This document shows positions 6,851 to 51,710 of a DNA stretch of 64,000 nucleotides, one piece after another. A program made the translations under genes and the position numbers. The stretch's first letter is position 1, and each line of letters starts with the position of its first letter. Origin of the DNA: Rhizobium sp. PP-CC-3A-592. GTDB taxonomy: Bacteria > Pseudomonadota > Alphaproteobacteria > Rhizobiales > Rhizobiaceae. The stretch spans positions 1 through 64,000 of the forward strand of contig NZ_QJSR01000007.1 in NCBI RefSeq assembly GCF_003217095.1. The letters run 5' to 3'. The notes beneath the pieces are model-generated. The model ran no database searches and had not been told where the DNA came from. It saw only the letters and a program-made list of their open reading frames with translations.

Positions 6851-6860
6851 TGCCGGCCTC

Positions 6861-8374: not shown

Positions 8375-8386
8375 AGGAGCTGAGCC

Positions 8387-9592: not shown

Positions 9593-9596
9593 GAGC

Positions 9597-9615
9597 CGGA
9601 GGTCTTCGACCTCCG
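9597..9615 (+). terminator. Hairpin after pcaF
   Basis: An eight-base-pair stem (CGGAGGTC, loop TTC, GACCTCCG) starts four bases after the pcaF stop. No T-run follows, so it may act as an mRNA 3'-end stabiliser or a weak terminator. Confidence 0.45.
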
Positions 9616-9723
9616 CGCCACGCTGCACGACATGACCCCCCGTATTCATCGCTTGTCGATGATCCATCGGCTCTTCAAAACGCGCTATCGAGGACTATCT
9701 TCGCCAGCGATCGTTGATGGAGA

Positions 9724-10329: not shown

Positions 10330-10392
10330 CCTCTCCTGCCTTGATTTTTCGCACGACCGACCAACCCCCAGCGCGCCGACCGGAAACAGATC

Positions 10393-36619: not shown

Positions 36620-37456
36620 TCAGGGAATGGGCTCGAACTTCAGTTCGCTAAGGGGCACGACCTTGTCGTTGCGGACGATCTTGTACTCCGTGTTCGGGCC
36701 GAGCCACTTGTCCCAGATCTTGCCGAGTTCGCCCGACGTGTCGAGCTTGCGCAGCACCTCGTTGATCTTGGCGGTCAGCGCGGGCTGGTCCTTCTGCATG
36801 CCGACGCCGATGGGCTGGAAGATCATCGGATCGGGGATCATGCGCATCTTCTTGCCCTGGGTCTGGGACTGGTTGACGAACTTCGTCGTCGTCATGGTGT
36901 TGGCGACCATGCCGCGCGCCTTGCCCTGCTGAACGGCGAGGTAGGCCGATGCCGTATCCTGGAAGGTCAGAGGCGTGGACTTGTTGAGCTTGATCGACAT
37001 TTCCGAGGTCGAGCCCTTGGTCGAGGCGATACGCTGGCCTTCGAAGTCGGCCTTCGTCTTGCCCGGATCTTCATCGGGAACGATCAGCATTTCCTTGGCG
37101 AGGTAGTAGGGGTCGCTGAACTGAATCTGCTCGGCACGGCTAAGCGTGTAGGCAAGGTTCGCGACGGTGATGTCGACGCGGCCGAGCTTGACTTCCGGCA
37201 CGCGCGCTTCGACGGACACGGGCTTCACTTCGGCCTTGACGCCGAGTTCCGTGGCGATGGCGTTGCAGAGGTCGACGTCGAAGCCGGCCATTTCGCGGGT
37301 CTTCGGATCGGGCGACGCGAAAGGCGGAACGTCGGCAAAGGTCGCGCAACGCAGGGTCTTGGCAGACAGGATATCGGCGAGCTGATCGGCCTTCGCAGGT
37401 GCTGCAAGAGCCGTCGCTGCCAAAGCGAGTCCGAGTGTGATGCGTGTCAGGGTCAT
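36620..37456 (-). CDS. Amino acid ABC transporter substrate-binding protein
   Basis: A 278-residue family 3 binding protein. Signal peptide over residues 1-23 (ALAATALAAPAKA), then ADQLADILSAKTLRCATFAD. Typical segments are EMAGFDVDLCNAIATELGVK, GRVDITVANLAYTLSRAEQI and KGSTSEMSIKLNKSTPLTFQ. It is the last gene of a minus-strand operon (SDR, two permeases, ATPase, SBP). Its own ribosome-binding site (AGGAGAACAGC) precedes the ATG. The ligand is probably a polar amino acid or derivative. Confidence 0.9.
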   Translation of the reverse strand: MTLTRITLGLALAATALAAPAKADQLADILSAKTLRCATFADVPPFASPDPKTREMAGFDVDLCNAIATELGVKAEVKPVSVEARVPEVKLGRVDITVANLAYTLSRAEQIQFSDPYYLAKEMLIVPDEDPGKTKADFEGQRIASTKGSTSEMSIKLNKSTPLTFQDTASAYLAVQQGKARGMVANTMTTTKFVNQSQTQGKKMRMIPDPMIFQPIGVGMQKDQPALTAKINEVLRKLDTSGELGKIWDKWLGPNTEYKIVRNDKVVPLSELKFEPIP

Positions 37457-37497
37457 GCTGTTCTCCTTTGATTATTATAGTTAGAAAGTGACGTCCG

Positions 37498-38277
37498 TCA
37501 GTGCCGCAGGTCGGCAAGGAAGCGCTGGGCGCGCGGATGGCGGGGATGGGTGAAGAATTCTTCGGGCGTCGCCTTTTCGATGATCCCGCCGGCATCGATG
37601 AACCAGATCCGGTCGGCGACATCACGCGCAAAGCCCATCTCGTGCGTGACGCACAGCATGGTCATGCCGTCCTTGGCGAGGCTCTTCATGACGGCGAGCA
37701 CTTCGCCGACCATCTCGGGATCGAGCGCACTGGTCGGCTCGTCGAACAGCATCACCGGGGGCTCCATCGCCAGGGCACGGGCAATGGCGACGCGTTGCTG
37801 CTGTCCGCCGGAAAGCTGGCCCGGATAGGCCGTCGCCTTGTCGGCAAGGCCGACGCGGTCGAGCAGCAGCAAGGCCTTATCGTGGGCGACATCGCGGGAG
37901 ACGCCCTTCACCCGGATCGGCGACATCGAGACATTGTCGACCACGGAGAGGTGCGGAAAGAGGTTGAAGCTCTGGAAGACGAAGCCGATGCGGCTGCGCA
38001 GACGGTTGAGGTCCCGCGTTTTCATCGGCGCGTGGATGTTCTGACCGTCGAAGGTGATGGCGCCGCTGTTGATCTCCTCCAGCCGGTTGATCGTGCGGAT
38101 CAGCGTCGACTTGCCGGAGCCGGAGGGGCCGCAGATGACGACGACTTCACCGCGTGCCACTTCGGCGTCGATGCTCTTGAGCACCTCGTAGGTGCCGTAT
38201 GTCTTGGAGACTCCGGCGATCCGGATGGCCGTCGGATCCTGTCCATTTTGCGGGCCTGTTCGATCGAGGCTTTTCAT
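37498..38277 (-). CDS. Amino acid ABC transporter ATP-binding protein (GlnQ/HisP type)
   Basis: A 259-residue ATPase: Walker A GPSGSGKS at about residues 50-57, Q-loop [15 protein letters not shown], signature [17 protein letters not shown], Walker [19 protein letters not shown] and H-loop [16 protein letters not shown]. It overlaps the upstream permease gene by four bases. It may also energise the ATPase-less module at 32611-34414, which is inference. Confidence 0.94.
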
Positions 38278-39035
38278 GGCTGCTCCGTTGCGATTTTGAC
38301 CGGCGGCGCAACCACGTGCGCGGTGCGGCCTGCAGACAGGCCGGCGCGCCTGCGGGTGATGCGGCGTTCGAGACGATGGGTGGCGTGGGTCAGGCTCCAG
38401 CAGATCACGTAGTAGATCACGGCCAGAATGAGGAAGACCTGGAAGGGCTGCGTCAGAAGCTGGTTGTTCACCTGGCTCGCCGCAAAGGTGAGGTCAGGAA
38501 CGTTGATGACATAGCCGAGCGTCGTATCCTTGATGGTGGACACGAAGGTGGAGAGGATGCTCGGAATCATATTGTAGAGCGCCTGCGGCAGAATGACGAA
38601 GCGCATGGCCCCGAGGTAGCTGTGACCGAGCGCCTTCGCCGCGTCCATCTGCCCGTGGCTGAGAGCGACGATGCCGCCGCGAACGACCTCGCTGAGGAAG
38701 GCGCCTTGATAGATGACGAGCGTGGTCAGCATGGTGACGAAGCTCGGCACATCCGCGCCGGTCATCAGCGGCACCAGGAAGTAGCTCCACAGGATCAGCA
38801 TCAGCAGCGGTACGCCGCGCGTGACATAGACCAGCACGGTGACCGGCCAGCGGAGCAGCCGCCATTTGGAAAGCCGGGCGAGCGCCATGAGAATGCTGAC
38901 GGGAAAGGCGAGCGCGATACTGAGCGTCGACAGGATCAGCGTGTTTGCAAGACCGCCGAGCGGGCCGTTCGGGTACTGCCCGATAAGCAGCAGCAGCCAG
39001 TAGTCCTGAAAGATCGTGACGATATCGGTGATCAT
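38274..39035 (-). CDS. Amino acid ABC transporter permease (HisM type)
   Basis: A 253-residue permease with HisMQ-type features: [36 protein letters not shown], the EAA loop [20 protein letters not shown] and a C-terminal amphipathic tail. It overlaps both neighbours by four bases (ATGA), so the two permeases and the ATPase are coupled. Forms a heterodimer with the 39032-39739 product. Confidence 0.93.
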
Positions 39036-39739
39036 GCGCGCGCCCTCCGTGAGACGTCGGTGCGCATGGTCACCACGGCGCCGGCCGCCATGATCAGCAG
39101 GGTGAAGGCCAGGTAGAGCACGGTTCCGATCACGTAGATCTCAAAGGTGCGGAAGCTCAGGTTCTCGACCTCTTTCACCGCATGCGTCAGTTCGGACGCG
39201 CCGATGACGATGCCGAGGCTGCTGTTCTTGAACAGGGAAACACTGTGGTTGATCAGCGGCGGCAGGGCGTTGCGAACCCCCTGCGGCATCAGCACGTAGC
39301 GCATGGCCGAGAGATAGCCATGGCCGAGCGCACGCGCAGCCTCCATCTGCCCCACGCTAACGGAGCGAAGCCCGGAGCGCAGATCCTCGCTGAAATACGC
39401 CGCCTGGCAGAGGCCGAGCCCCACCACAGCGAAGATCGCCTCGGCATTGTGGTTCGACAGCCAGAAGGTCAGCCAGTCCGGCAGCAGCGTGAAGATGCCG
39501 AAATACCAGAGCATCAGCTGCACCAGCGTCGGCACGTTGCGGTGATAGGAGACATAGGCCGAAACGAAGGCATTGCCGAAACGGCCGGGCGAGAAGCGCA
39601 GCGCCAGCAGCAGAACGGCGAGCGTCATTGCCAGCACCCACGAGCCGATGGCGATCACGAAGGTCATCTTGATGCCTTCGATCAGCATCGCGACATAGTC
39701 CGGATTGGACAGGATCGCCGTGATGTCGAACCCGCTCAC
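39032..39739 (-). CDS. Amino acid ABC transporter permease (HisQ type)
   Basis: A 235-residue permease: MLIEGIKMTFVIAIGSWVLA, YHRNVPTLVQLMLWYFGIF, LRSGLRSVSVGQMEAARALG and a final helix before [11 protein letters not shown]. It starts with GTG at 39739, whose last two bases overlap the stop of the SDR gene (GTGA). A longer frame that continues upstream merely reads through the SDR gene out of frame and is not a fusion. Confidence 0.9.
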   Translation of the reverse strand: MSGFDITAILSNPDYVAMLIEGIKMTFVIAIGSWVLAMTLAVLLLALRFSPGRFGNAFVSAYVSYHRNVPTLVQLMLWYFGIFTLLPDWLTFWLSNHNAEAIFAVVGLGLCQAAYFSEDLRSGLRSVSVGQMEAARALGHGYLSAMRYVLMPQGVRNALPPLINHSVSLFKNSSLGIVIGASELTHAVKEVENLSFRTFEIYVIGTVLYLAFTLLIMAAGAVVTMRTDVSRRARA

Positions 39740-40515
39740 GGCTTCTGGTCCGGCGCAGGCGCTTTGGGACGCACTGTTTCCGGGCGCGCGGTCTGCAGGC
39801 CACCCATGACCTGAAGCGTCGGCGTGATTTCCATATGGCCGATATTGACCGCGATGGGGGCAGCGATGGCAAAGGCGATGGCGTCGGCGATATCGGAGGC
39901 TTCCGGCAGTTCGAAGCCATCGATGAAGCGTTCGCGGATGGACGGATCGTCGCCGTGCACATGGGCGAAGATATCGGTCGCCACCCGTCCGGGGCAGATC
40001 TCGGTGACCCTGACGCGCTTGCCGAACGCATCGATGCGCAGCTGGTTGGACAGCATGCTCACCCCGGCCTTCGTCGCGTGATAGGAGGAGTTTCCGCCAA
40101 AATTGTAGGCGCCCGCGATGGACGAGATGTTGATCACATGGCCATTGTCCCGCGCGACCATGCCCGGCACGACCATGCGGCAGAGATGCAGGACGGCGCG
40201 AAGATTGACGTCGACCAGAAGATCGATGTCGGCTTCGTCCGCCTCCAGAAACTTCTTTGGCCTGTCGACGCCGGCATTGTTGACGAGAATATCGAATTCC
40301 GTTTCGGCGGTCAGCCGGGCAAGCGCCGCGCGGTCCGTGACGTCGATGACGTGCGGGATGCAACCCGTCTTCGCGGCAAGCGCCTTCAGCGGCTCGGCGC
40401 TGCGCGCCAGCGCATGCACCTCGATGTTCTCGCGGCACAGGCGCTCCACGACGGCGGCGCCGATGCCGGACGACGCGCCGGTAACAAGGGCTGTCCTGTA
40501 GTCGGAAAATGACAT
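39736..40515 (-). CDS. SDR family NADP-dependent oxidoreductase
   Basis: A 259-residue classical SDR. Cofactor motif TGASSGIG at residues 12-19, NNAG near 80, ISS with the catalytic Ser near 133, and Tyr/Lys in SSYHATKAG near 146-150. The C-terminal tail is proline-rich. The basic residues after the first strand (ARSAEP) suit NADP. First gene of the amino acid transporter operon, so it probably oxidises or reduces the imported compound, for instance a hydroxy amino acid; no finer call is possible. A LysR gene is divergent 256 bases away. Confidence 0.88.
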   Translation of the reverse strand: MSFSDYRTALVTGASSGIGAAVVERLCRENIEVHALARSAEPLKALAAKTGCIPHVIDVTDRAALARLTAETEFDILVNNAGVDRPKKFLEADEADIDLLVDVNLRAVLHLCRMVVPGMVARDNGHVINISSIAGAYNFGGNSSYHATKAGVSMLSNQLRIDAFGKRVRVTEICPGRVATDIFAHVHGDDPSIRERFIDGFELPEASDIADAIAFAIAAPIAVNIGHMEITPTLQVMGGLQTARPETVRPKAPAPDQKP

Positions 40516-40620: not shown

Positions 40621-40771
40621 AATAAGCAGAGCGCTCCGGCATGCGCTTGCAAATGCAGCAGACTGTGCGTGCAATGCACAATGCGACGATCTGCTAAGTG
40701 ATGGATTTGGCTTTGAAATATCAGGGTCGGATTGTAGAGTGCCGACAAGTGGGGCGATCTATAGGCAGAAC

Positions 40772-41686
40772 GTGGATATCAGGCGTTTAAAATCTTTCAT
40801 CGTCATCGTGGACACCGGCAGCATCACGCGGGCGGCCGATATCCTTCACGTTGCGCAGCCGGCCCTCAGCCAGCAGCTGGCCTCGCTCGAGGAGCACTTT
40901 GGCCAGAAGCTGTTGCTGCGCAGCCAGCAGGGCGTGAGCATGACGGATGCGGGCCATGCCGTGTATCGCCATGCGCAAATTATCCTGCGGCAGATGGACC
41001 AGGCGCAGGCCGATGCCTCGGCCGCCGGAAATTCGCTTGCGGGGCGCGTATCCGTCGGCCTCGTGCCCTTCAGCAGTGCGGCGACGCTGTCGGTCGATCT
41101 GCTGGCGGAAACACGCAAGCGGCATCCCGGCATTCTCCTGCATCTGACGGAGAGCGTCGGGCAGACCTACAGCCAGATGATCATGACCGGCCGCCTGGAG
41201 ATGGCGCTGATCCATGGCGTCGGGCCACTAAAGGGCGTGAAATTCGAGCCGATCCTCAGCGAGGAATTCTTCCTCGTCGCGCATCCGAACTTCGCCATCG
41301 AGGCGGATGAGAAGCCCATTGCGGTCGCGGCGCTGGACGGCCTGCCGTTGCTCATGCCGCCGGCCTACAACTTCGTGCGTCGGGCAGTCGATACCGCCTT
41401 CACCCGCAGCCGGGTCAACCTGAAGGTCGTGGGCGAAGTGGAGATCGTGCGGACTCTTACCCGCGCCGTCAGCGCCGGTCTTGGCGCGACGATCATGCCG
41501 AAGGCGATTGCGGACCGGATCGTAACCGAGTCCGGCGAGCCGCTGGTCTGCCGCATGGTGACGCCGCGCATCGAGGAAACGCTGTCGCTCTGCGTGGCGG
41601 ATGGGATGTCGCTGTCCGAGCCCGCAACGGCCGTGCGGGACATCCTGCTGGAACTCACCGCGCGGCTGAAACTGCCGCGCGGCTGA
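40772..41686 (+). CDS. LysR family transcriptional regulator
   Basis: A 304-residue LysR protein: N-terminal helix-turn-helix VDIRRLKSFIVIVDTGSITR and ADILHVAQPALSQQLASLEE at residues 1-45, with the inducer-binding domain from about 90 to 295. The GTG at 40772 gives the canonical LysR beginning; a GTG at 40739 would add 11 residues. It is divergent from the SDR-transporter operon and probably activates it. It is in the group of Nac/Cbl-like regulators by general look, which is a weak impression. Confidence 0.9.
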   Translation: MDIRRLKSFIVIVDTGSITRAADILHVAQPALSQQLASLEEHFGQKLLLRSQQGVSMTDAGHAVYRHAQIILRQMDQAQADASAAGNSLAGRVSVGLVPFSSAATLSVDLLAETRKRHPGILLHLTESVGQTYSQMIMTGRLEMALIHGVGPLKGVKFEPILSEEFFLVAHPNFAIEADEKPIAVAALDGLPLLMPPAYNFVRRAVDTAFTRSRVNLKVVGEVEIVRTLTRAVSAGLGATIMPKAIADRIVTESGEPLVCRMVTPRIEETLSLCVADGMSLSEPATAVRDILLELTARLKLPRG

Positions 41687-41710: not shown

Positions 41711-42913
41711 TTAGCGAAGATCGGCGCAGAACTGCGCAAGCCGGGCGCAGGCTTCGTCCAGCTTCTCTATGCTGGTGGCATAGGAGATGCGAAAAAACGG
41801 GCTCATGCCGTAGGCCGCACCCTGAACGGTCGCGACGTGATGTTCCTCGACCAGTGCCATGACGAAGTCGGTGTCCGTCTCGATTTTGCGGCCTCCCTTC
41901 GATGTCTTGCCGAGCAGGCCGGAGATGTTGGGGAAGATATAGAACGCGCCTTCCGGCTTGTGGCACCGGATACCGTCGATCTCCGCCAGTCTGCCGAGCA
42001 CGAAATCGCGCCGCTGCGTGTAGATGGCGGCCCGCTCTTTCAGAAGGTCCTGCGGTCCGTCGAGCACGGCAACGGCTGCGGCCTGCACGACGGTCGCTGT
42101 GCCGCCGCCGTTCTGGCCGTTGACGTTGCTGATCGCCTTGATCAGATCCTTCGGACCACCGCAAAAGCCGAGCCGCCAGCCGGTCATGGCATAGGCCTTC
42201 GAGGCGCCGTTCATGGTCAGCACGCGATCGTAGAGACGGGGTTCGACCTCGGCGATGGTGCAGAATTCGAAACCGTCATAGATCAGATGTTCGTAGATAT
42301 CGTCGGTCATGATCCAGATATCGGGATGGCGCAGCATCACCTCGGCGATCGCCTTCATTTCCTCCCGCGAGCAGGCAGCGCCCGTCGGGTTGTTGGGAAA
42401 GTTGAGAAAGAGCCACTTGGTGCGGGGCGTGATCGCCGCTTCCAGATCTTCCGGCCGGATCTTGAAACCGGCCTGCTGCGGGCAGGCGACGGGCACCGGC
42501 ACGGCGCCGGCAAAGCGGACGATATCGGCGTAGCTGATCCAGGACGGCATGGGAATAACCACTTCGTCGCCGGGATTGCAGGTGGCGAGAATGGCGTTGA
42601 AGATCACCTGCTTTCCGCCGCCGCAGACGACGATCTGGCTGGCATCGTAGTCGAGATTGTTGTCGCGCTTGAATTTTCGCGAGATCGCGGCCTTCAGCGC
42701 CGGCGTCCCATCCATCGACGGGTACTTCGTGTCGCCCGCGAGCGCTGCGGCATGAGCCGCTTCGGTCGCATGGGCGGGCGTTGCGAAATCCGGCTCGCCG
42801 GCCGACAGGCTGATGACGCCGATCCCCTGCGCGGCGAGATCGCGTGCGCGCTGGGTCATGGCGGCGGACGCGGAGATGGAGACGTGTTTCAGGCGGTCGG
42901 CAATGGCGGGCAT
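41711..42913 (-). CDS. Aminotransferase class I/II (aspartate aminotransferase-like, AspC family)
   Basis: A 400-residue PLP enzyme of the rhizobial AspC (subgroup 1-gamma) type. Visible motifs: AGEPDFATPAHATEAAHAAA, CGGGKQVIFNAILAT, LNFPNNPTGAACSREEM, the PLP lysine in NGASKAYAMTGWRLGF (about residue 236), and substrate carboxylate arginine in FFRISYATS. Substrate range of this group includes aspartate, aromatic amino acids and other 2-oxo acids. It stands between the LysR gene and the carboxylase/oxoprolinase operon, about 140 bases from the latter's end, and may form part of the same unit. Confidence 0.9.
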   Translation of the reverse strand: MPAIADRLKHVSISASAAMTQRARDLAAQGIGVISLSAGEPDFATPAHATEAAHAAALAGDTKYPSMDGTPALKAAISRKFKRDNNLDYDASQIVVCGGGKQVIFNAILATCNPGDEVVIPMPSWISYADIVRFAGAVPVPVACPQQAGFKIRPEDLEAAITPRTKWLFLNFPNNPTGAACSREEMKAIAEVMLRHPDIWIMTDDIYEHLIYDGFEFCTIAEVEPRLYDRVLTMNGASKAYAMTGWRLGFCGGPKDLIKAISNVNGQNGGGTATVVQAAAVAVLDGPQDLLKERAAIYTQRRDFVLGRLAEIDGIRCHKPEGAFYIFPNISGLLGKTSKGGRKIETDTDFVMALVEEHHVATVQGAAYGMSPFFRISYATSIEKLDEACARLAQFCADLR

Positions 42914-43052: not shown

Positions 43053-43817
43053 TCAGGCGATGTCAGACGCCGGGGCGATGGTCGCGCCGCTGGCCTCGAT
43101 CTCGCTGCGGACGATCCGCGCGAGGTCGAGAGACCCGGGCGTATCGCTGTGGACGAGGATGGAACGTGCCGGCATGGCCAGCGTCGCGCCGTCGATGGTG
43201 GTCACGGTACCGTGCCGGAGGAATTGGCGAACGCGGGCGCGCAGCGCGTCCTCCTGCTTGATAACGGCGCCCGGCAGGCCGCGTGCAACCAGCTTGCCGT
43301 CCACATCGTAGGCCCGGTCGGCAAGGAACAGCAGCAGCGTCTTCAGCCCGGCGCGGGCGGCAGCTGTCGCAATGACGCTGTCGGGCATGGCAAAGACGAT
43401 GAGGTTCGGATCGACGGTGTGGACGGCGTCCATCATCAGGTCGGCGAGCACGGGATCGCGATTGACCATATTGCCCATGGCAGCGTGGAAGCTGATATGC
43501 GCGACGGGCACACCCTCGCCTTTCGCGACCGCCGTCAATGCGCCGAGCTGATAGAGCATTTGCTGGCGCAATTGGTCATGCGAGGAGGGAATCTCGCGGC
43601 GGCCGAAGCCGAGCCTGTCCGGTAGGCCCGGATGCGCACCGACGCCGACCCCGTTCGCCTTGGCGAGACGCACCATCCGCGCCATCGTTTCGGGGTCGCC
43701 GGCATGGAAACCGCAGGCAATATTGGCGGAGGAGACGACCGTCATCAGGGCTTCGTCATCGCATAGGCTGTAAGGACCGAAGCCCTCGCCCATATCGGAA
43801 TTTATGTCGATTTTCAC
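43053..43817 (-). CDS. pxpA: LamB/YcsF family 5-oxoprolinase subunit A
   Basis: A 254-residue LamB/YcsF protein with the family start VKIDINSDMGEGFG and the motifs SSANIACGFHAGDPETMARM, GVGAHPGLPDRLGFGRRE and ILVHSDTPGSLDLARIV. PxpA is the hydrolytic partner of PxpBC in ATP-dependent opening of 5-oxoproline. Start: GTG 43817 stands after AGGAGGTGAGTTC, an almost perfect ribosome-binding site; an ATG at 43835 would overlap the preceding stop and bypass it. It is the last gene of an operon whose other members include biotin carboxylase and its carrier. Confidence 0.92.
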   Translation of the reverse strand: MKIDINSDMGEGFGPYSLCDDEALMTVVSSANIACGFHAGDPETMARMVRLAKANGVGVGAHPGLPDRLGFGRREIPSSHDQLRQQMLYQLGALTAVAKGEGVPVAHISFHAAMGNMVNRDPVLADLMMDAVHTVDPNLIVFAMPDSVIATAAARAGLKTLLLFLADRAYDVDGKLVARGLPGAVIKQEDALRARVRQFLRHGTVTTIDGATLAMPARSILVHSDTPGSLDLARIVRSEIEASGATIAPASDIA

Positions 43818-43831
43818 GAACTCACCTCCTG

Positions 43832-44827
43832 TCATCGGCCTGCCATCGCCTTCAGCGCCCGCCCGACTTGTCTCGCGGTGATTTCGACGTCGCCGATATA
43901 GGCGGCAATCGCCTGGTCAAGCATCCGCGCCTCTGCATGCGACGCCCGTACGAAGCGCAGACGCGTGCCGATGCGCGCCTGACCCAGCCGCCAGAGGTCG
44001 GCCTCGATGATGCCTGCGATCTTCGGATATCCGCCCGCCGTATTGGCATCGCTCATCTGCACGATGGGCTCGCCGCCCGGCGGCACCTGAACGACACCTG
44101 CGACGATGCCGTGGGAGCGCATTTCGACCGGTTCCGTCAGACGGATGGGATTGCCCGAAAGGCGGTAGCCGGTCCGGTCGCTCTGCGCGGAGATTTTCCA
44201 GTCCTCGGCCCAGAATCGCTCGGCATCCGCCCCGAACAGATCGTGTTCGCCGGCCGGCAGCGCCCGGATCAGCAAGGCGCCGTTTTCGGCTTTAGGGAAG
44301 AGCGATGCCATCTCGCGCAGGGGAGGCACCACGCCGAAGCCGCCCGCGGGGAAGACACCGGACGCCGGAGACCCCAGCTGAAGCACGTCGCCTTTGCGTA
44401 GCGCGCTACCGTCATTGCCGCCGAACGCACCGCGCAACGAGGTGCTGCGCGAGCCCATGACCGGCGCGACATCGACGCCACCCTCGAAGGCCACATAGGC
44501 GCGGGCCGACGTTTTCGACGGCAGGATTTCAAGGATCTGGCCGGCGGCTGCAATCTGCATCCACCAGGGCGGAAGGGTTTCCCCGTCAAGCATCGCGGAG
44601 CCGCCGCCCGTGACGGCGAACGCGGTTCTCTGCTGGAAACGGATACGCACGGGAAATGTCTGGAGTTCGACCGCCGCGGCTCCCGCATCGTTGCCAACCA
44701 GCAGATTGGCGATCGTCAATGCCAGCGGGTCCATCGCTCCGCTCACCGTCACGCCGATGTCGCGGTAGCCCGGTCGCCCGAGGTCCTGGATCGTGTTCAG
44801 CGGCCCGGTGTCGACGATCTCGATCAC
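43832..44827 (-). CDS. pxpC: Biotin-dependent carboxyltransferase family / 5-oxoprolinase subunit C (AHS2 domain)
   Basis: A 331-residue AHS2/KipA-type protein: IEIVDTGPLNTIQDLGRPGY at the start, GVTVSGAMDPLALTIANLLV, then AYVAFEGGVDVAPVMGSRST and VRASHAEARMLDQAIAAYIG near the end. The same domain forms half of the carboxyltransferase of urea carboxylase. It starts with GTG at 44827, overlapping the pxpB stop (GTGA). The nearby accB/accC genes raise the possibility that it works as a real biotin-dependent carboxyltransferase here. Confidence 0.9.
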   Translation of the reverse strand: MIEIVDTGPLNTIQDLGRPGYRDIGVTVSGAMDPLALTIANLLVGNDAGAAAVELQTFPVRIRFQQRTAFAVTGGGSAMLDGETLPPWWMQIAAAGQILEILPSKTSARAYVAFEGGVDVAPVMGSRSTSLRGAFGGNDGSALRKGDVLQLGSPASGVFPAGGFGVVPPLREMASLFPKAENGALLIRALPAGEHDLFGADAERFWAEDWKISAQSDRTGYRLSGNPIRLTEPVEMRSHGIVAGVVQVPPGGEPIVQMSDANTAGGYPKIAGIIEADLWRLGQARIGTRLRFVRASHAEARMLDQAIAAYIGDVEITARQVGRALKAMAGR

Positions 44828-45519
44828 AGCTCGATCCTTTCGGGGAGAAAGCGCACGATATCGCCCGGCGCCATCAGGGCGGGCACCTCGGCTGCGGGGT
44901 CGAACATCGGCAGATCGGCAAAGCCAATGGAATTCCAGCCATTTGGCCCGGTCAGAACGGCAACGCCCGTCTGCATGCCGCCGATGGTGACGCAACCCTT
45001 TTCCATCCGCAAAGACGGCACGGTCTTGCGCGGCATGTGAAGGCGCGGATCGAGCCCATGCAGGTAGCCGAAGCCCGGCGCGCTGCCGAGCGCAAACACC
45101 GTATAGGTGCCCTGATGATGCAGCCGCACGACCTCTCTGTCGGAAAGGCTGCAAAGATCGCAGAGGGCTGCCAGATCGGTCGCATGCGCGCCGCCGTAAT
45201 GGACGGGAATGTCAATCGTCTTGCCTTTGATGTCGATACTTTCGGCGCGTTCCCAGGCGTCGAGCAGCCTAGATATCACGCTGTCGGGGTCTTCCGGCAC
45301 GGCCTTGAAAACGGCCAGCAGATTGGTCATACCCGGCACGGTCTCGATCACGTCAGGCCATTGCCGCACGGTCTGCGTCAGCGCCCAGATCCGTCGTTGC
45401 GCGGCAAGGTCGAACTCGCCCGGCGCGTCGAGCAGGAATGCCCGCGCGCCGATGGCAGAGATCTTGGGGCGCGACCGGATCAGCGGTCGGCTGGCAAGGG
45501 AACGGACTGCGTGGCTCAT
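44824..45519 (-). CDS. pxpB: 5-oxoprolinase subunit B family protein (AHS1 domain)
   Basis: A 231-residue AHS1/KipI-type protein: FLLDAPGEFDLAAQRRIWAL, ETVPGMTNLLAVFKA, the family motif IDIPVHYGGAHATDLAALCD, and APGFGYLHGLDPRLHMPRKT. AHS1 and AHS2 together form the carboxyltransferase domain in urea carboxylase and the PxpBC part of 5-oxoprolinase. The ATG at 45519 overlaps the stop of the upstream small gene by four bases, and its own stop overlaps pxpC. Confidence 0.9.
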   Translation of the reverse strand: MSHAVRSLASRPLIRSRPKISAIGARAFLLDAPGEFDLAAQRRIWALTQTVRQWPDVIETVPGMTNLLAVFKAVPEDPDSVISRLLDAWERAESIDIKGKTIDIPVHYGGAHATDLAALCDLCSLSDREVVRLHHQGTYTVFALGSAPGFGYLHGLDPRLHMPRKTVPSLRMEKGCVTIGGMQTGVAVLTGPNGWNSIGFADLPMFDPAAEVPALMAPGDIVRFLPERIEL

Positions 45520-45917
45520 GGGTGTGCCTCGATGTCGAACAGAGGATCGCCGAAGCCGACAAGGGCTTGCCGGTCTACAAGGCACCGCGTGACCATGCAG
45601 GCTCTTGAGGCCCTGACGGGTACCAGCACCGGCCCGACGCGCAGGCAGGCAAGAATGTCTCCGGCACGAACGGTTCGTGGCAGTTCGCTCGGGATCGTCT
45701 CGAGGTCGAAAATGCCGGCCATCAGCGCGGTGATGATATTGGCTGCGGATGCAGGGCCGGCCTCGAGGCGCATCGTCGCGCGCGTGCTCTTCCCCTCTAC
45801 GACCAGCCGCAGCCTGCGCGACGATTGCTCGATTTCGATGCCGTCCACGCCTGCGGCCGTCAGGGCGGCGGCAAGCGCGTCGAGGAGAGCGGGATCGGTG
45901 AAGTCCAGCTTGCTCAT
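45516..45917 (-). CDS. BCCP-like protein lacking the biotinyl lysine
   Basis: A 133-residue protein. From about residue 60 (SAANIITALMAGIFDLETIP, then RTVRAGDILACLRVGPVLVP, RASRACMVTRCLVDRQALVG, GDPLFDIEAHP) its pattern matches a biotinyl/lipoyl barrel. Where the carrier protein encoded at 47302-47703 has EAMKV, this one has RVGPVLVP with no lysine, so it cannot be biotinylated at that place. The N-terminal 50 residues resemble the leading segment of short AccB proteins. It overlaps accC and pxpB by four bases each, so its dosage is tied to theirs; a structural or adaptor role is inferred. Confidence 0.72.
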   Translation of the reverse strand: MSKLDFTDPALLDALAAALTAAGVDGIEIEQSSRRLRLVVEGKSTRATMRLEAGPASAANIITALMAGIFDLETIPSELPRTVRAGDILACLRVGPVLVPVRASRACMVTRCLVDRQALVGFGDPLFDIEAHP

Positions 45918-47302
45918 GCGGCGCTCCGCTGCTTCAGCCATGTCTCGAGATAGTGAATGTCCGTGCCACCGGCCGCAAAGGCCGCGTCGTCGAACAGCGC
46001 GCGCAGCAGCGGCAGATTGGTGGCGATGCCGTCGATGCGCGTCTGGGCAAGCGCGCTGCGCATGGCGGCAAAGGCCTCCGCCCGGCTCGGCGCATGCACG
46101 ATCAGCTTGCCAATCAGCGAGTCGTAATAGGCCGGCACCTTGTAGCCGGCATGGACATGCGTATCGACCCGGATACCGGGGCCGGATGGCAGGGCGATGC
46201 CGGTGATGGTGCCGGCTGCCGCCAGAAACGTTTCGGGGTCTTCCGCATTGATGCGGCATTCGAAGGCATGCCCTTCGGTCACCACATCCCCCTGCCCCAG
46301 CGCCAGCGGTTCGCCCTGCGCCACCTGGATCTGCGCCTGGACGATGTCGATATCCGCGGTCATTTCGGTCACGGGATGCTCGACCTGGAGCCGGGTGTTC
46401 ATCTCGATGAAGTAGAACTCACCGTCTTCATAGAGAAACTCGAAAGTGCCGACGCCACGATAGCCGATCAGCCGGCAGGCGGTGAGGCAGGCTTCGGCAA
46501 CGGGCGCGATGCGTTCCGGCGCGATACCTGGCGCGGGGGCCTCCTCCACCACTTTCTGATGGCGGCGCTGCATGGAGCAATCGCGATGCCCGAGCCAGAT
46601 AGCGTTGCCGTGCACGTCGCAAAGAACCTGTATTTCGATATGGCGCGGATGCTGGAGAAATTTCTCCATATAGAGCGCCGGGCTGCCGAAGGCTTGCCGG
46701 GCTTCCTCGCGGGTCAGCGATACCGCCTCCTGCAAATGTCCCGCCTCGTGCACCACGCGCATCCCACGCCCGCCACCGCCGCCGGCCGCCTTGACGATCA
46801 CGGGATAGCCGATCTCAGCGGCAATGGCCTGGACTGCAGCCGGATCGTCCGGAAGGGCCGTATCGGGGCCGGGAACGCAAGGAACGCCGGCCGCCATCAT
46901 CGCGGATTTCGCGGCAATCTTGTCGCCCATGGTCGAAATCGAGGCAGCAGTCGGCCCGATGAAAACCATCCCCGCCGTCTCGATGGCAGCGGAAAAGCCG
47001 GCATTCTCGGACAGGAAGCCGTAACCGGGGTGAATGGCGCCGGCACCCGTCATGCGCGCCGCCAGCAGGATCGCATCCTGATTGAGATAGCTCTTGCCGG
47101 CGCTTGCCGGGCCTATGCAAAGGAACCTGTCGGCCAGCGCACCATATTGCGCGTCCCGGTCGGCCTGCGAGCAGATCATGACCGTCTTCAGGCCCAGATC
47201 CTTGCAGGCCCGGAGCACCCGCAGCGCGATTTCGCCGCGATTGGCGATGAGGACCGTATCGAAGCTGCGTGCTTCCTGCGTGTTTGTGGCGTCCCCGGAC
47301 AT
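45914..47302 (-). CDS. accC: Biotin carboxylase (AccC-type)
   Basis: A 462-residue biotin carboxylase. N-terminal TVLIANRGEIALRVLRACKD, then ATP-grasp glycine loop KAAGGGGGRGMRVVHEAG, the biotin/bicarbonate segment LGHRDCSMQRRHQKVVEEAP, EFLYEDGEFYFIEMNTRLQV and the C-terminal domain AFECRINAEDPETF. All catalytic stretches are intact. Start: ATG 47302 overlaps the accB stop by one base; upstream frame residues are arginine-rich noise. The operon context indicates an accessory carboxylase, not the housekeeping acetyl-CoA carboxylase copy. Confidence 0.93.
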   Translation of the reverse strand: MSGDATNTQEARSFDTVLIANRGEIALRVLRACKDLGLKTVMICSQADRDAQYGALADRFLCIGPASAGKSYLNQDAILLAARMTGAGAIHPGYGFLSENAGFSAAIETAGMVFIGPTAASISTMGDKIAAKSAMMAAGVPCVPGPDTALPDDPAAVQAIAAEIGYPVIVKAAGGGGGRGMRVVHEAGHLQEAVSLTREEARQAFGSPALYMEKFLQHPRHIEIQVLCDVHGNAIWLGHRDCSMQRRHQKVVEEAPAPGIAPERIAPVAEACLTACRLIGYRGVGTFEFLYEDGEFYFIEMNTRLQVEHPVTEMTADIDIVQAQIQVAQGEPLALGQGDVVTEGHAFECRINAEDPETFLAAAGTITGIALPSGPGIRVDTHVHAGYKVPAYYDSLIGKLIVHAPSRAEAFAAMRSALAQTRIDGIATNLPLLRALFDDAAFAAGGTDIHYLETWLKQRSAA

Positions 47303-47703
47303 CAGGCGATCTCCGCCAGCAGGTCGCCCGCCTCGATCTCGGCGCCATCCACGCCCGCGAGCCTTACGATACGACCTGCGCACGGTGCAGAAATGCTATT
47401 GAAGACCTTCATGGCTTCGATGATGAACAGCGTCTGGCCGGCCTCGACGATATCGCCAAGGGCGACGAACGGCTTTTCGCCGGGTGCCGATGCCGCGTGC
47501 AGCACACCGAAGATCGGCGCGGTCACCTGCGTCGAACCGGCCTCTCCGGCAGCAGCGGCAGGTACGGCAACCGGGCCAGCGGTTTCGCCCGTCGTCTTCG
47601 TCCGGAAGATCCGGACCGTCGTATCCTTCTCGCTCACCGTGAGTTCGGTGATGTCGGATTGGCCGACGAAGTCGATCAGGGTTTTGATTTTCGAGAGGTC
47701 CAT
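47302..47703 (-). CDS. accB: Biotin carboxyl carrier protein (AccB-type)
   Basis: A 133-residue carrier. An N-terminal AccB segment (KIKTLIDFVGQSDITELTVS) is followed by an Ala/Pro-rich linker (about 45-58) and a biotinyl domain with EAMKV, whose lysine (Lys99) is the expected biotin site. It is first in a six-gene operon: accB, accC, BCCP-like, pxpB, pxpC, pxpA. All junctions but the last overlap or touch. Confidence 0.92.
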   Translation of the reverse strand: MDLSKIKTLIDFVGQSDITELTVSEKDTTVRIFRTKTTGETAGPVAVPAAAAGEAGSTQVTAPIFGVLHAASAPGEKPFVALGDIVEAGQTLFIIEAMKVFNSISAPCAGRIVRLAGVDGAEIEAGDLLAEIA

Positions 47704-47894: not shown

Positions 47895-48821
47895 ATGAAC
47901 CCCGGAAAAGGCATTCTCCTCAAACTTCTAGCAGCCCTCTGCGCGACCTTGATGGCGGCGAGCGTGAAGGGGCTGAACGGTGAGATTCCGACAGGGGAAG
48001 TCGTGTTCTTCCGGTCTGTCGGCGCGCTCCTGCCCTTGGGCATCTGGCTCGGACTACAGGGAAACCTCGTTGCCCTCACCCGCACGAAGCATTTTGGCGG
48101 GCACCTCGTCCGCAGCATTTCCGGCACGGGCGGCATGTTCTTCGGCTATCTTGCGCTCGCCTATCTGCCGCTCGCAGACGCGACGGCACTGAGCTACGCC
48201 GCACCGCTCTTCACCGTCATCCTCGCAGCCTTGCTTCTGGGCGAGGTCGTCCGGGTCTACCGCTGGACGTCGGTCGCGGTCGGCTTTACCGGCGTGCTGG
48301 TGATGCTGGCGCCGCATCTCGATATTTTCAAAGCCGACGTCATCGGCGTGGGCATGCTGCTCGGCAGTGCGGCGGGGCTCGTGGCGGCGTTCTTCTCCGC
48401 CGTTTCCTCGGTGTAGATCCGTCACCTCGCAAAGACCGAACAGCCGAGCGCGATCGTGCTCTATTTTTCTCTCGTCACCACCATTATCGGCCTGGCGACC
48501 GCTGTCTTCGGCTGGACGATGCCGAGCGTGACGCAGCTCTGCCTTCTGCTCGCCGCCGGCATTTCCGGCGGCATGGCACAGATCTTGATCACGTTGAGCC
48601 TGCGCCATGCGCAAGCCTCGCTGCTTGCGCCGTTCGAATATTCGACGCTGATCTGGTCCGTGGTCATCGGCTATCTCGCCTTCGGCGAGTTACCCGTTAT
48701 CACCACGATCACGGGCGGCGTCATCGTTGCGGCAGCCGGCCTCTTTGCCGCGTGGCGGGAGAGCCGGCTGAAGCGGAGCTTGCAGATGACGGAGACGGCG
48801 CTGGCTGCCGCCGAGGCCTGA
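47895..48821 (+). pseudogene. DMT/EamA family transporter gene interrupted by an in-frame TAG
   Basis: Two stretches in the same frame together make a normal 300-residue, ten-helix EamA transporter. The first (47895-48416) ends FFSAVSSV followed by TAG at 48414-48416. The second continues without shift as IRHLAKTEQPSAIVLYFSLV to a TGA at 48819-48821. Intact relatives commonly have a Gln here (VQIR), so a single CAG to TAG change explains the break. No other defect is seen, which suggests recent inactivation or a sequencing error. A substrate cannot be given; EamA members export metabolites. Confidence 0.82.
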
Positions 48822-48878: not shown

Positions 48879-49553
48879 TCAGATATCCGACCGGAATCCC
48901 TTGGCTTTCAGCACTGGTTCCAGATTGCTGACCTCGATCACCGATTTGCCCGCCTTGTAGGCGGCGATATAGCCGGCTTCGGCGTCTTCCCGCTCCTGCG
49001 AAAGCTTCGCCACCGCCTGCGCCTCGCCACGACGGACGACCACGAGCCCGTCGGCATCGCCGACGATGATGTCGCCGGGATAGATCAGTTCGTCGCCGAC
49101 GATGATCGGATCGTTGACCGAGGTCAACGTTTCCTTGACCGTGCCCTTGATGCAGACGCTGAGCGAGAACACGGGAAAGCCGAGATCGCGGAGCTGCAGC
49201 GTGTCCCGCACGCCCGTATCGGTCACGAGGCCGCCGATGCCCTTGGCAAGGCAGGCATTGGCCAGTACGTCGCCGAAGGACCCGGCTTCCTCGTACGCGC
49301 CGCCGGAGACGACGATGATATCGCCCGGGCTCGCATAATTGATCGCCAGCTGCAACATGACATTGTCGCGCGGTGCGCTTTTCACGGTAAAGGCCGGGCC
49401 GCACAGCTTCATGCGGTAATCGACTGGCTTGATGCGCGACGAAAGGGCGCCACGACGCCCCTGAGCCTCATGGATGGTTGCCGGCGAGAAGGGTGAAAGC
49501 CCCTTGATGTCTTCCGCGCTCGGACGCTCCGGGATTTGCTTGATATGGATCAT
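48879..49553 (-). CDS. RraA family protein (HMG/CHA aldolase-like)
   Basis: A 224-residue RraA/HMG-aldolase-fold protein. Features: GRRGALSSRIKPVDYRMKLC, GDIIVVSGGAYEEAGSFGDV (residues typical of the active-site loop), GIGGLVTDTGVRDTLQLRDL containing the substrate-binding Arg-Asp, and VGDELIYPGDIIVGDADGLV. The family includes 4-hydroxy-4-methyl-2-oxoglutarate aldolases and RNase E inhibitors; conserved Asp and Arg positions favour an aldolase or decarboxylase of a 2-oxo acid. It is the last gene of a transporter operon, so it likely degrades the imported compound. Confidence 0.85.
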   Translation of the reverse strand: MIHIKQIPERPSAEDIKGLSPFSPATIHEAQGRRGALSSRIKPVDYRMKLCGPAFTVKSAPRDNVMLQLAINYASPGDIIVVSGGAYEEAGSFGDVLANACLAKGIGGLVTDTGVRDTLQLRDLGFPVFSLSVCIKGTVKETLTSVNDPIIVGDELIYPGDIIVGDADGLVVVRRGEAQAVAKLSQEREDAEAGYIAAYKAGKSVIEVSNLEPVLKAKGFRSDI

Positions 49554-49573: not shown

Positions 49574-50305
49574 TCAGTGATTGCGGTGGATGGAGGAGAG
49601 GAAGCCCCGCACGTCGGGATGCGCCTCCTGGGAGAAGAACAGGTCGGGGCTGGCGTCGAACGTTAGTCGCCCGCCCTTGAGGAACCAGATGCGATCGGCC
49701 ACCTCGCGGGCGAAGCCCATTTCGTGGGTGACGCACATCAGCGTGATGCCGCCGCCGGAAAGCTCGCGCAGCAGCTTCAGCACCTCGCCGACCATTTCCG
49801 GATCGAGCGCGCTGGTCGGCTCGTCGAGGATCAGGATCTCGGGCTTGAGGATCAGCGAGCGGGCAATGGCCACCCTCTGCGCCTGCCCGCCCGAAATATC
49901 GGCCGGCAGAGACTGCGCCCGATCGGCAAGGCCGACGCGTTCCAGCATGAGCATGGCCGTCGGCAGTGCCTGTTTGCGCGACTGCCCGCGAAGGCGACGC
50001 AGCGGCAGCATTACGTTGTCGACGACCGTCAGGTGCGGAAACAAGTTGAAGTGCTGGAAGACGAAGCCGATGCCTGAGCGCAACGTATTCACATCGACGG
50101 ACTTTGCGTGGATATCGCGCCCGGCGACCGTGATCCGTCCCGACTGGATCGGCTCCAGCCGGTTGACCGTGCGCACCAGCGTGGACTTGCCCGAACCCGA
50201 GGGGCCACAGAGCACGATGGTCGTGCCTTTCTCGACCGTAGCCGAGATATCGTGGATGACCTGCAGCGCGCCGTAGCGCTTGGAGACGCTGTGAAATGCG
50301 ATCAT
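49574..50305 (-). CDS. Amino acid ABC transporter ATP-binding protein (GlnQ/HisP type)
   Basis: A 243-residue ATPase: Walker A GPSGSGKS at about residues 34-41, Q-loop GFVFQHFNLFPHLTV, signature ISGGQAQRVAIARSL, Walker [19 protein letters not shown] and H-loop [16 protein letters not shown]. It overlaps the upstream permease by four bases. It is clearly paralogous to the 37498-38277 ATPase. Confidence 0.94.
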   Translation of the reverse strand: MIAFHSVSKRYGALQVIHDISATVEKGTTIVLCGPSGSGKSTLVRTVNRLEPIQSGRITVAGRDIHAKSVDVNTLRSGIGFVFQHFNLFPHLTVVDNVMLPLRRLRGQSRKQALPTAMLMLERVGLADRAQSLPADISGGQAQRVAIARSLILKPEILILDEPTSALDPEMVGEVLKLLRELSGGGITLMCVTHEMGFAREVADRIWFLKGGRLTFDASPDLFFSQEAHPDVRGFLSSIHRNH

Positions 50306-51012
50306 GCCACCGCCTCCACGACGACCCGGCCGGTTCGCCGGTTGGAAATGCGCCGTTCCAGCACGCCCGTTGCTTGGCTGAGCGCAAAGCAGAGAACGAA
50401 ATAGGTGGCGGCGAGAATGCCGAAGATCTGCAAGGGCTTGGTGACCTCGTTCGAGTTCACTTGGAGCATGGCATAGGAGAGTTCCGGCACGGCGATGATC
50501 GAGCCGAGCGAGGATTCCTTGATGATCGTCGTCAACTGGTTGACGATGCCGGGGATGACGTTGAACAGCGCCTGCGGCAACAGGATGCGGAACGTCGTCG
50601 GGATGTAACCGAGACCGAGCGCTTCGGCCGCCTCCATCTGTCCCTTGGGAAGGCCCTCGATGCCGGAGGCGATGATCTCGCCGAGATAGGCCGTCTGGTA
50701 GATGACGATGGCGATGATCAGCGTATAGGTCGCATCGATCGGAATGCCGATGACGACGGGAAGCGCGAAATAGGCCCAGAAGATCAGCATCAGCAGCGGA
50801 ATGGCGCGCACGCAGTGCACGAAGCCGCTGGCAAGCCTTTTCAGTGGCTTGTTTTTTCCCGTCCGGGCGAGCGCGATGAGAATGGCACAGGGAAACGTCA
50901 CGATCAGGCTGACGAAGGAGATGATGAGCGTCATCGCCAGGCCGCCGAGTTTGCCGTGCGGATACTCGCCGATGAGAAGAAGGACGCCGTATTCCTGAAG
51001 GATGTCCAGCAT
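50302..51012 (-). CDS. Amino acid ABC transporter permease (HisM type)
   Basis: A 236-residue permease: LGGLAMTLIISFVSLIVTFP, CVRAIPLLMLIFWAYFALP, EAA loop KGQMEAAEALGLGYIPTTFR and TTIIKESSLGSIIAVPELSY. The ATG at 51012 shares a base with the stop of the upstream permease (TGATG). It pairs with the 51012-51710 product. Confidence 0.92.
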   Translation of the reverse strand: MLDILQEYGVLLLIGEYPHGKLGGLAMTLIISFVSLIVTFPCAILIALARTGKNKPLKRLASGFVHCVRAIPLLMLIFWAYFALPVVIGIPIDATYTLIIAIVIYQTAYLGEIIASGIEGLPKGQMEAAEALGLGYIPTTFRILLPQALFNVIPGIVNQLTTIIKESSLGSIIAVPELSYAMLQVNSNEVTKPLQIFGILAATYFVLCFALSQATGVLERRISNRRTGRVVVEAVA

Positions 51013-51710
51013 CACTTGACCCTCAGCCGGTAGCGTGTGGACAGAACCGACGAGGCCCACATGATCGCAAACGAAATCAGCATGTAGATTGCGGTGACGA
51101 CGCCATAGGCCTCGAAGATCCGGAAGGATTGCTCCTCGACATAGCGTGCCTGATAGCTGAGTTCCGCCACGCCGATACCGGCAGCAAGGCTGGTGCCCTT
51201 GAACAGGATCAGCGTCTGGCCGAGCAGGGCCGGCAGCGCCAGCCGCCATGCCTGCGGCAGGATCACCCATTTCATCGCGCCGAGATAGGTAAGACCGATG
51301 GCGCGGGCGGCTTCCATCTGCGCCGGGTGGATGGAGCGAAGCCCGCTGCGGAAATCCTCCGACATATAGGCCGCCTTGTTCAGCGCCAGCGCCACGATGG
51401 CGTAACCGATCTCGGCACCGATATCGTTGAGGTAGTCGTTGACGACATCCGGCAGCACCACGGCGAAGCCGAAGTACCAGACGAACAGCTGGATCAGGAT
51501 CGGTACGTTGCGGTGATACTCGACGAAGGCTGCGACCAGAAACTGTGTCGGCCGGAATTCGATGGCCCGCACGACCGTCAGGAAGATCGCGAGGATCAGC
51601 CCCAGAACCCAGGAGATGACGAAGAGAACCATCGTCGTCTGGAGCCCTTGCAGAATGAGATCGAAGTACTCGCCCTGCAGAACCTTGCTGAAATCAAGCT
51701 GATAGCCCAT
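51012..51710 (-). CDS. Amino acid ABC transporter permease (HisQ type)
   Basis: A 232-residue permease: LILQGLQTTMVLFVISWVLG, YHRNVPILIQLFVWYFGFAV, LRSGLRSIHPAQMEAARAIG and LILFKGTSLAAGIGVAELSY. Start: ATG 51710, which gives the usual short N-terminus before the first helix; an upstream GTG at 51755 would add 15 basic residues. A stem-loop separates it from the SBP gene upstream. Confidence 0.9.
   Translation of the reverse strand: MGYQLDFSKVLQGEYFDLILQGLQTTMVLFVISWVLGLILAIFLTVVRAIEFRPTQFLVAAFVEYHRNVPILIQLFVWYFGFAVVLPDVVNDYLNDIGAEIGYAIVALALNKAAYMSEDFRSGLRSIHPAQMEAARAIGLTYLGAMKWVILPQAWRLALPALLGQTLILFKGTSLAAGIGVAELSYQARYVEEQSFRIFEAYGVVTAIYMLISFAIMWASSVLSTRYRLRVK

Follow-up and report, generated by a model that had tools for sequence, protein, structure and literature searches.

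A lysine-less biotin carrier homologue retained in a rhizobial pxp-acc operon, a possible biotin-assisted lactam hydrolase

The window analyzed here is a 64,000-nucleotide stretch of the soil bacterium Rhizobium sp. PP-CC-3A-592 (contig NZ_QJSR01000007.1, positions 1 to 64,000). At 43053-47703 it carries an operon that joins the subunits of a PxpABC-type 5-oxoprolinase to a biotin carboxylase (BC), a biotin carboxyl carrier protein (BCCP), and a BCCP homologue without the biotin lysine. We propose, with a probability of roughly 0.48, that these genes specify a lactam hydrolase driven by ATP and assisted by biotin, in which a PxpABC-type enzyme is served by a dedicated BC and carrier and the lysine-less BCCP would hold the parts together. 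In such an enzyme, AccC would carboxylate the AccB-bound biotin at the expense of ATP and bicarbonate, and the carboxybiotin carrier would swing to PxpB-PxpC, a pair with the carboxyltransferase (CT) fold, where transient carboxylation would activate the amide of the lactam ring. PxpA would open the activated ring, and the carboxylated amine would lose CO2; the net reaction would convert lactam, ATP, and water into amino acid, ADP, and Pi. The opened product would then pass to an aminotransferase, a short-chain dehydrogenase/reductase (SDR), and an RraA-like aldolase, and the lysine-less BCCP would act as a scaffold or docking part of the complex. Loci without accC or a biotinyl BCCP would borrow housekeeping AccC and AccB in trans.

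In the order of transcription, on the minus strand, the genes are accB (47302..47703; BCCP, 133 aa), accC (45914..47302; BC, 462 aa, with its ATG at 47302), the BCCP-like gene (45516..45917; 133 aa), pxpB (44824..45519; AHS1), pxpC (43832..44827; AHS2, with a GTG start), and pxpA (43053..43835; LamB/YcsF hydrolase subunit). A first-pass annotation of this DNA had described six overlapping genes at this place. Indeed, all the open reading frames are present on the minus strand, and all five junctions overlap, by 1, 4, 4, 4, and 4 bases from accB to pxpA. Pfam identifies five of the six proteins: Biotin_lipoyl in AccB, which has an AccB-like N-terminal part and the biotinyl motif EAMKVF with Lys99; Biotin_carb_N, CPSase_L_D2, and Biotin_carb_C in AccC; CT_C_D in PxpB; CT_A_B in PxpC; and LamB_YcsF in PxpA. 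The BCCP-like protein is the sixth; it has no Pfam match by itself and was recognized by profile comparison with AccB. Since the same six genes stand in the same order in named relatives and in copies from a Rhizobiaceae survey, the arrangement is not due to chance.

The third gene is the one that the first-pass annotation had labeled "BCCP-like." Its protein is a BCCP homologue, aligned with AccB by hhalign at a probability of 92.7 and an E value of 4.2e-7 (columns 21-134 against 15-141), and it is without the biotin lysine. Its biotin hairpin reads ACLRVGPVLVPV, where the lysine-bearing hairpin of AccB reads FIIEAMKVFNSI; in many relatives the hairpin resembles GFIRVGPLLLPV. The C-terminal end is VGFGDPLFDIE in the window protein and often VGYGDPLFEIE in relatives. 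None of 36 aligned lysine-less rows, among which the protein of locus L155 was entered twice, has Lys at the biotin-lysine column. Because of this, the gene cannot encode a second biotin carrier, and we rejected that candidate role. One copy, from locus L205, has Lys one place after the column, and its lysine-less status is therefore less certain. Among 13 relatives searched with Pfam Biotin_lipoyl, four scored over the cut-off (L134, L149, L192, and L205), five matched weakly, and four gave no match.

A decaying pseudogene was likewise considered and is ruled out by the ratio of nonsynonymous to synonymous substitution rates (dN/dS), by open frames, and by the existence of two separable profile families. 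The lysine-less BCCP gave dN/dS values of 0.18-0.55 in 11 of 12 chosen pairs (the twelfth gave no value), against 0.05-0.36 for the other operon subunits; it evolves faster than they do and is still under purifying selection. Two profiles, one of lysine-less and one of biotinyl copies, were built from loci L125-L164 and searched within 5 kb of pxpB/pxpC. They separate the two kinds of copy, except for a single 9-bit match to a long reading frame in L017. Three gammaproteobacterial copies and that of L205, outside the profile set, score higher with the lysine-less than with the biotinyl profile (79/41, 60/26, 70/36, and 65/53 bits). In L160, a single protein (8674-9219, minus strand) fuses a biotinyl BCCP domain with the motif EAMKML to a lysine-less one; Pfam recognizes the biotinyl half, and the other half is visible as lysine-less from its sequence. 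An AlphaFold2 model of the lysine-less BCCP from a seven-row alignment was poor (mean pLDDT, 55.4) and was left unused. A literature search covering openly licensed papers found no published account of this protein. The nearest analogue known to us is the BADC proteins of plants, which are homologous to BCCP, lack the biotin lysine, and belong to the plastid acetyl-CoA carboxylase. Like them, the bacterial protein occurs alongside a true BCCP and a BC; unlike them, it belongs to a lactamase-type locus and is kept even where BC and true BCCP were not found at the locus. Since the biotin site has been lost and the gene is nevertheless kept in almost every relative, we suggest that it encodes an unrecognized working part, which would most likely be a structural subunit holding the carrier or the carboxylase against PxpBC.

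How well the lysine-less gene is conserved is stated here from a survey with PxpB as the query, which does not favor the BCCP-like gene, because loci L125-L154, L163, and L164 had been chosen for their match to the lysine-less protein. Among 247 Rhizobiaceae genomes, this survey gave 39 PxpB copies in 38 genomes, the window included. All 39 neighborhoods were inspected, "near" meaning inside fetched stretches of ~11-15 kb, some of them cut by contig ends. Every copy with a PxpB at least 65% identical to that of the window keeps all six genes in the same order (15 of 15, window included). At 37-48% identity, 23 of 24 copies carry both BCCPs, biotinyl and lysine-less, though not in a single gene order, and a BC lies in the inspected stretch of 14. 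The exception, in genome G452 (L231), is of the plain PxpABC kind, with subunits 63% and 62% identical to those of locus L018. Taken together, a biotinyl BCCP is near 38 of the 39 copies, a lysine-less BCCP near 38, and a BC near 29. Plain PxpABC loci L053-L064, taken from an alphaproteobacterial sample and in part lying on short contigs, showed neither a biotinyl nor a lysine-less BCCP within 5 kb. Six named relatives found through the BCCP-like protein itself, a query-biased set (L020-L025), likewise all carry the full six-gene set in unchanged order. The overlaps do vary; Rhizobium etli p42c keeps four of five and has a 21-base gap before pxpA. The R. etli CFN 42 counterparts of the six genes are RHE_RS23810-RHE_RS23785. 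Wide stretches left out G269, G297, and G317 (three of 15 matches of one search) and nine of 30 matches of a phylum-wide search. In genome G181, from an order-level search (contig C5; L234 and L157), a cluster of an accB-like gene, accC, the lysine-less BCCP gene, and pxpA lies ~13 kb from pxpB-pxpC. In genome G178 (L155), the lysine-less copy alone was seen in the 34 kb inspected.

The phylum-wide search, of 398 genomes, gave two relatives outside Rhizobiaceae with a PxpB 62-63% identical to that of the window, L192 (G914) and L193 (G768). A search of a plasmid collection gave a third, L236, on the Rahnella sikkimica plasmid NZ_CP019063.1. We infer that G914 and G768 are gammaproteobacteria because they are kin to Rahnella, the sole one of the three with known taxonomy. 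All three loci retain pxpB, pxpC, pxpA, an amino-acid ABC transporter, and a DMT transporter, together with the aminotransferase (70, 72, and 72% identity), the SDR (69, 70, and 71%), and a NAC-type regulator (44-45%). The lysine-less BCCP is kept at all three as well. In Rahnella it is BV494_RS22440 (L236, 14420-14860), with the hairpin LLGLLKVGVIYLPL. This gene is annotated as an acetyl-CoA carboxylase biotin carboxyl carrier protein subunit despite having no biotin lysine, which is probably a misannotation.

Which kind of CT the operon encodes bears on its chemistry. The first-pass annotation had presented the operon as a split, urea-carboxylase-like machine, and as a parts list this is correct: the BC, CT (A/B and C/D), and biotinyl carrier parts of urea carboxylase are all present, as separate coupled genes, along with a LamB/YcsF protein. 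The CT, however, is of the PxpB kind. In Kluyveromyces lactis urea carboxylase, Lys1605 is described as the probable general base at the CT site (PMC5770610). We mapped the position through an alignment to 5i8i, and across 91 aligned loci it is Arg in 76, Lys in 14, and Leu in one (L072). Lys is found in the three fused urea carboxylases (3 of 3), in split clusters of the L016 type (see below), and in L066 and L074, which have no BC in view; Arg is found in the window and in every BC-linked copy of its clade. The window PxpB and PxpC also fall apart from urea carboxylases in a PxpB+PxpC tree. PxpC aligns with the K. lactis urea carboxylase at an E value of 2e-33, and with the urea carboxylase model TIGR02712 (cut-off, 1303.85), AccC scores 475.2, PxpC 165.2, and AccB 34.1 bits, all below the cut-off. 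On the Lys1605 position, we ruled out the window set as a member of urea carboxylase and retained the likeness as an analogy. PxpB passes the equivalog TIGR00370 (180.9 over 145.55), PxpC is under the equivalog NF045499 (268.2 versus a cut-off of 500), and PxpA passes the subfamily models NF003814 (329 over 226) and NF003816 (221.2 over 213) and is below all three PxpA equivalog cut-offs. A structure model of PxpB was poor (57.9), and its Foldseek search merely supplied titles of entries already matched by sequence.

Ten catalytic residues of BC, picked and numbered after the Escherichia coli enzyme, are intact in the window AccC, as they are in 51 of 51 BC sequences compared, and the biotinyl motif of AccB is present in all seven proteins examined (window and L020-L025). 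AccC scores 617.7 with the NCBIfam accC equivalog TIGR00514, below the cut-off of 626.5, and passes the subfamily model NF006367 (656.8 over 597); AccB scores 90.8 with the BCCP equivalog TIGR00531, below the cut-off of 115.2. In a BC tree, the window-type BC is sister, with a support of 100, to the AccC at locus L010 of the same genome. We take the latter to be the housekeeping copy, because a BCCP-like stretch sits directly before it. The L016-type BC forms a separate clade, the fused urea carboxylases are elsewhere, and the BC of L017 stands apart. This suggests that BCs joined PxpBC-like genes more than once, which we keep as a suggestion because the tree has few outside references.

The genome holds four PxpB/PxpA loci (window, L016, L017, and L018), and at three of them (window, L016, and L017) a BC of visibly different lineage adjoins PxpABC-type genes; at L018, a PxpABC-type locus, no BC was seen. 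L016 (G000:C3:412000-426000, 5212-9469) consists of pxpA, an 80-aa BCCP (EVMK), accC, a CTcd gene with the urea-carboxylase Lys, and a CTab gene, touching or overlapping one another. Its PxpB scores higher as urea carboxylase (112.8) than as PxpB (67.5), under both cut-offs. Since the Lys at the 1605 place and the NCBIfam scores agree, we judge L016, not the window operon, to be the closer split urea-carboxylase relative in this genome. The CT_C_D/AHS1 family, urea carboxylases included, occurs in 25 of 96 alphaproteobacterial genomes sampled, and among these 25, L016-like clusters occur in eight other genomes (L065, L067, L069, L070, and L075-L078). L076 is without a visible BC on its 4.7-kb contig, and L065 has the BCCP last. 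L017 (G000:C7:248000-264000, 5924-10909) carries pxpA, a gene of the D-glutamate cyclase family, CT genes, and a BC fused to a BCCP (EAMKM; Pfam). It is possibly a route from D-glutamate through 5-oxoproline to glutamate with a fused BC.

The window operon can be set beside several known systems. The prokaryotic 5-oxoprolinase PxpABC is attributed to Niehaus 2017, as cited in PMC13274462. The window resembles it in a PxpB that passes TIGR00370, a PxpA that passes two subfamily models, and Arg at the Lys1605 place; it differs in a PxpC far below its equivalog, in the linked BC and the biotinyl and lysine-less BCCPs, and in an island with aminotransferase, SDR, and RraA. With urea carboxylase of the Oleomonas or K. 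lactis type it shares a BC, an AHS2/AHS1 CT, and a biotin carrier, but its genes are separate, Arg replaces Lys1605, the BC is of the AccC type, and the partner is a LamB/YcsF protein. L016-type clusters (pxpA-BCCP-BC-CTcd-CTab) have BC, BCCP, and PxpA as separate genes, as the window does, but have Lys at the 1605 place, one short BCCP, and a BC of another lineage, and the lysine-less BCCP was not found in them. Two urea-carboxylase CT halves as separate adjacent genes were noted in 2011, without functional data (PMC3199775). Staphylococcus aureus has a six-gene operon with pxpB, pxpC, pxpA, accB, and accC, whose authors assign accBC to fatty-acid synthesis (PMC11315280); like the window, it joins pxp and acc genes in one operon, a likeness by description and not by sequence. 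The placement of accB and accC beside pxp genes is already in print, and the surprise of the window operon is the lysine-less BCCP.

A physical precedent comes from PDB entry 9yx5 (released 2025-11-26), a long chain acyl-CoA carboxylase complex of Mycobacterium smegmatis with MSMEG_0435-MSMEG_0436 bound, judged here from its title and chains. Alongside AccA3, the entry contains chains for an AHS1 and an AHS2 protein, and its AHS1 protein reads PRR, with Arg at the Lys1605 place in our alignment. As in the window, an Arg-type AHS1/AHS2 pair is found together with a BC subunit, here AccA3. Unlike the window, this is a BC-BCCP subunit, and it serves several complexes (PMC11001197). As the entry shows, a BC complex can carry a PxpBC-type pair, an arrangement that would suit loci with no BC of their own. 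As for the chemistry, lactam activation of the carboxylation type is plausible because the caprolactamase CapAB, an unrelated ATP-dependent lactamase, needs bicarbonate (PMC8453981). Fungal LamA/LamB was considered as a further candidate precedent, and the literature searched for it yielded no such gene.

Several observations weigh against a biotin-assisted lactam hydrolase. Its substrate and its carboxyl transfer are both predictions from gene content, and the window PxpB has Arg, not Lys, at the general-base position of urea carboxylase. Corynebacterium glutamicum grows on 5-oxoproline by means of a PxpABC that has no linked acc genes (PMC13274462). The AHS1/AHS2 pair in 9yx5 might be an incidental passenger of purification, and the CapAB authors allow bicarbonate as a mere activator (PMC8453981). 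Most loci outside the PxpB-query survey came from queries favoring the lysine-less gene, and within the survey, 10 of the 39 Rhizobiaceae copies are without a BC in the stretch inspected, nine of them with both BCCPs. At the gammaproteobacterial loci L192, L193, and L236, the inspected stretches (27, 27, and 20.7 kb) revealed neither BC nor biotinyl BCCP. The first-pass annotation had made conservation of the six genes together the measure of a single complex. This co-occurrence holds in the close Rhizobiaceae copies (15 of 15) and breaks down at these three relatives; by that measure, a dedicated AccBC is therefore not strictly needed. In the PxpB+PxpC tree, from which L236 is absent, L192 and L193 are nested in the BC-linked clade, where they stand between L134, a locus with a BC and both BCCPs, and the window type, with supports of 97 and 100. 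Support is 100 for the clade that unites L139-L164, the window type, and L192/L193, and L158 (74) and L017 (long branch) attach outside it. Since L192 and L193 nest inside the BC-linked clade, loss or non-transfer of the biotin module would be the simpler story for the gammaproteobacterial versions. Their lysine-less BCCP, kept where no local BC or biotinyl BCCP was found, would fit either the borrowing of AccBC from the housekeeping set or a structural part acting directly on PxpBC. L205, from a distant genome of the phylum, has a BC, a biotinyl BCCP, and a lysine-less copy.

We then weighed other explanations. PxpABC could be a complete, biotin-free lactamase in which PxpBC phosphorylates the lactam, as is assumed for the substrate of C. 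glutamicum PxpBC (PMC13274462). AccB and AccC would ride along, for example to supply malonyl-CoA or to act on another substrate, and the lysine-less BCCP would regulate or plug acetyl-CoA carboxylase parts. The gammaproteobacterial versions, which keep the aminotransferase (70-72%), the SDR (69-71%), and the transporter where BC and biotinyl BCCP were not found, speak for this, as do the PxpB-type Arg and a C. glutamicum enzyme that works without linked accBC (PMC13274462). Such a lactamase has no obvious need for a lysine-less BCCP, yet all three gammaproteobacterial versions keep one. The BCCP pair that accompanies 38 of 39 copies, the AHS1/AHS2-carboxylase complex in 9yx5, and the BC lineages that apparently joined the family more than once also tell against it, and we consider it a serious explanation, if on balance a doubtful one. 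A strict split relative of urea carboxylase, releasing a stable N-carboxylated product from urea, guanidine, or amidine, would account for the shared domain set and for the E value of 2e-33 between PxpC and the K. lactis enzyme. It would sit badly with Arg at the Lys1605 position in the window and in 76 of 91 loci, where all three fused enzymes and the L016 type have Lys, with a PxpB and PxpC apart from urea carboxylases in the tree, and with the presence of LamB/YcsF and a 5-oxoprolinase-type PxpB; we regard it as very improbable. We give equally little credence to a regulatory system in which a BADC-like lysine-less BCCP sequesters housekeeping AccC and AccB and so couples fatty-acid synthesis to nitrogen supply, with the lactamase just co-regulated. 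A BCCP homologue without lysine, a window AccC sister to that of L010, and an adjacent NAC regulator are what it would predict, but the lysine-less BCCP tracks PxpB across genomes, and in window-type loci the aminotransferase and SDR too, and its gene is overlapped by pxpB by 4 bases.

The biotin-assisted lactam hydrolase can also be put in a wider form, which we hold only tentatively and think rather unlikely. The lysine-less BCCP would then be an obligatory subunit of the whole PxpABC-type clade that has outlasted the biotin module and docks a dedicated or borrowed BC onto PxpB-PxpC, and lactam opening by PxpABC enzymes, currently described as biotin-free, would be driven by carboxylation, with carboxybiotin supplied by the acyl-CoA carboxylase of the cell. 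PxpB-like proteins are widespread, yet the papers cited here just assume how PxpBC uses its ATP. If BCs do feed PxpBC, lactam opening, urea carboxylation, and acyl-CoA carboxylation would share one donor, and AHS1/AHS2 would be a carboxyltransferase fold of general use. In bacteria, the lysine-less carrier would exemplify a dead paralogue retained as an assembly part, and as one small protein it would offer a clean handle on the system.

The operon lies in a larger island. Conserved beside pxpA is a class I pyridoxal phosphate aminotransferase gene (41711..42913, minus strand), and beyond it are a conserved LysR regulator of the NAC family (40739..41686, plus strand; over the NCBIfam cut-off) and an SDR oxidoreductase (39736..40515, minus strand), for which the nearest NCBIfam model is YdfG, below its cut-off. 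These are followed, on the minus strand, by two amino-acid ABC transporter permeases (39032..39739, annotated in the syntenic islands of R. etli and P. gei, and 38274..39035), the transporter ATPase (37498..38277), and a family 3 solute-binding protein (36620..37456). Upstream of the operon, an RraA-like aldolase gene (4-carboxy-4-hydroxy-2-oxoadipate aldolase/oxaloacetate decarboxylase; NCBIfam, 213.9 over 179) lies at 48879..49553 on the minus strand. R. etli p42c and Pararhizobium gei p2 annotate the same island, with the six genes, aminotransferase, NAC, SDR, two permeases, ATPase, solute-binding protein, and an aldolase placed in the 4-carboxy-4-hydroxy-2-oxoadipate aldolase family, and Phyllobacterium zundukense carries the same set. 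The transporter at 36620-39739, which the first-pass annotation had named as possibly delivering the substrate, is indeed a member of the conserved island in R. etli, P. gei, and further loci. All 22 window-type loci of the tree have the aminotransferase and SDR, and 21 have the aldolase; the other, L024, is cut by contig and flank. Near the gammaproteobacterial loci, an RraA-family match was seen at L192 only, at 33% identity, and none in the L193, L212, L213, or L236 stretches.

These genes point to an island for uptake and breakdown of a nitrogen-containing, amino-acid-like compound, whose opened form would be transaminated and, in rhizobia, cleaved by the aldolase. The RraA model, the aminotransferase, and the SDR point to a putative 4-hydroxy-2-oxo acid after transamination. 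Our guess for the substrate is a 4-substituted 5-oxoproline of the 4-hydroxy type, which would fit all three enzymes. Literature listings searched for rhizobial phenotypes contained nothing about these genes.

Other genes adjoin the island. At 47895-48821, next to the operon, is a DMT/EamA transporter gene with one in-frame stop, in two same-frame pieces; relatives of it occur near the cluster in L020, L025, L125, L126, and L207, and in L192, L193, and L236. A second transporter of the amino-acid ABC type (49574-51270) adjoins the RraA-like aldolase, and similar ones occur in L020, L021, L025, L125, L126, L207, and L217. The R. etli p42c arrangement is different: there the aldolase comes after the first transporter, whereas in the window it stands with the second. 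Elsewhere in the genome, L208 (G000:C6:18000-34000, 7468-10994) holds a further BC gene and an adjacent BCCP-like stretch, with an HMGL-like frame, recognized by eye, upstream in transcription; this locus looks like a two-part carboxylase of the pyruvate/oxaloacetate type.

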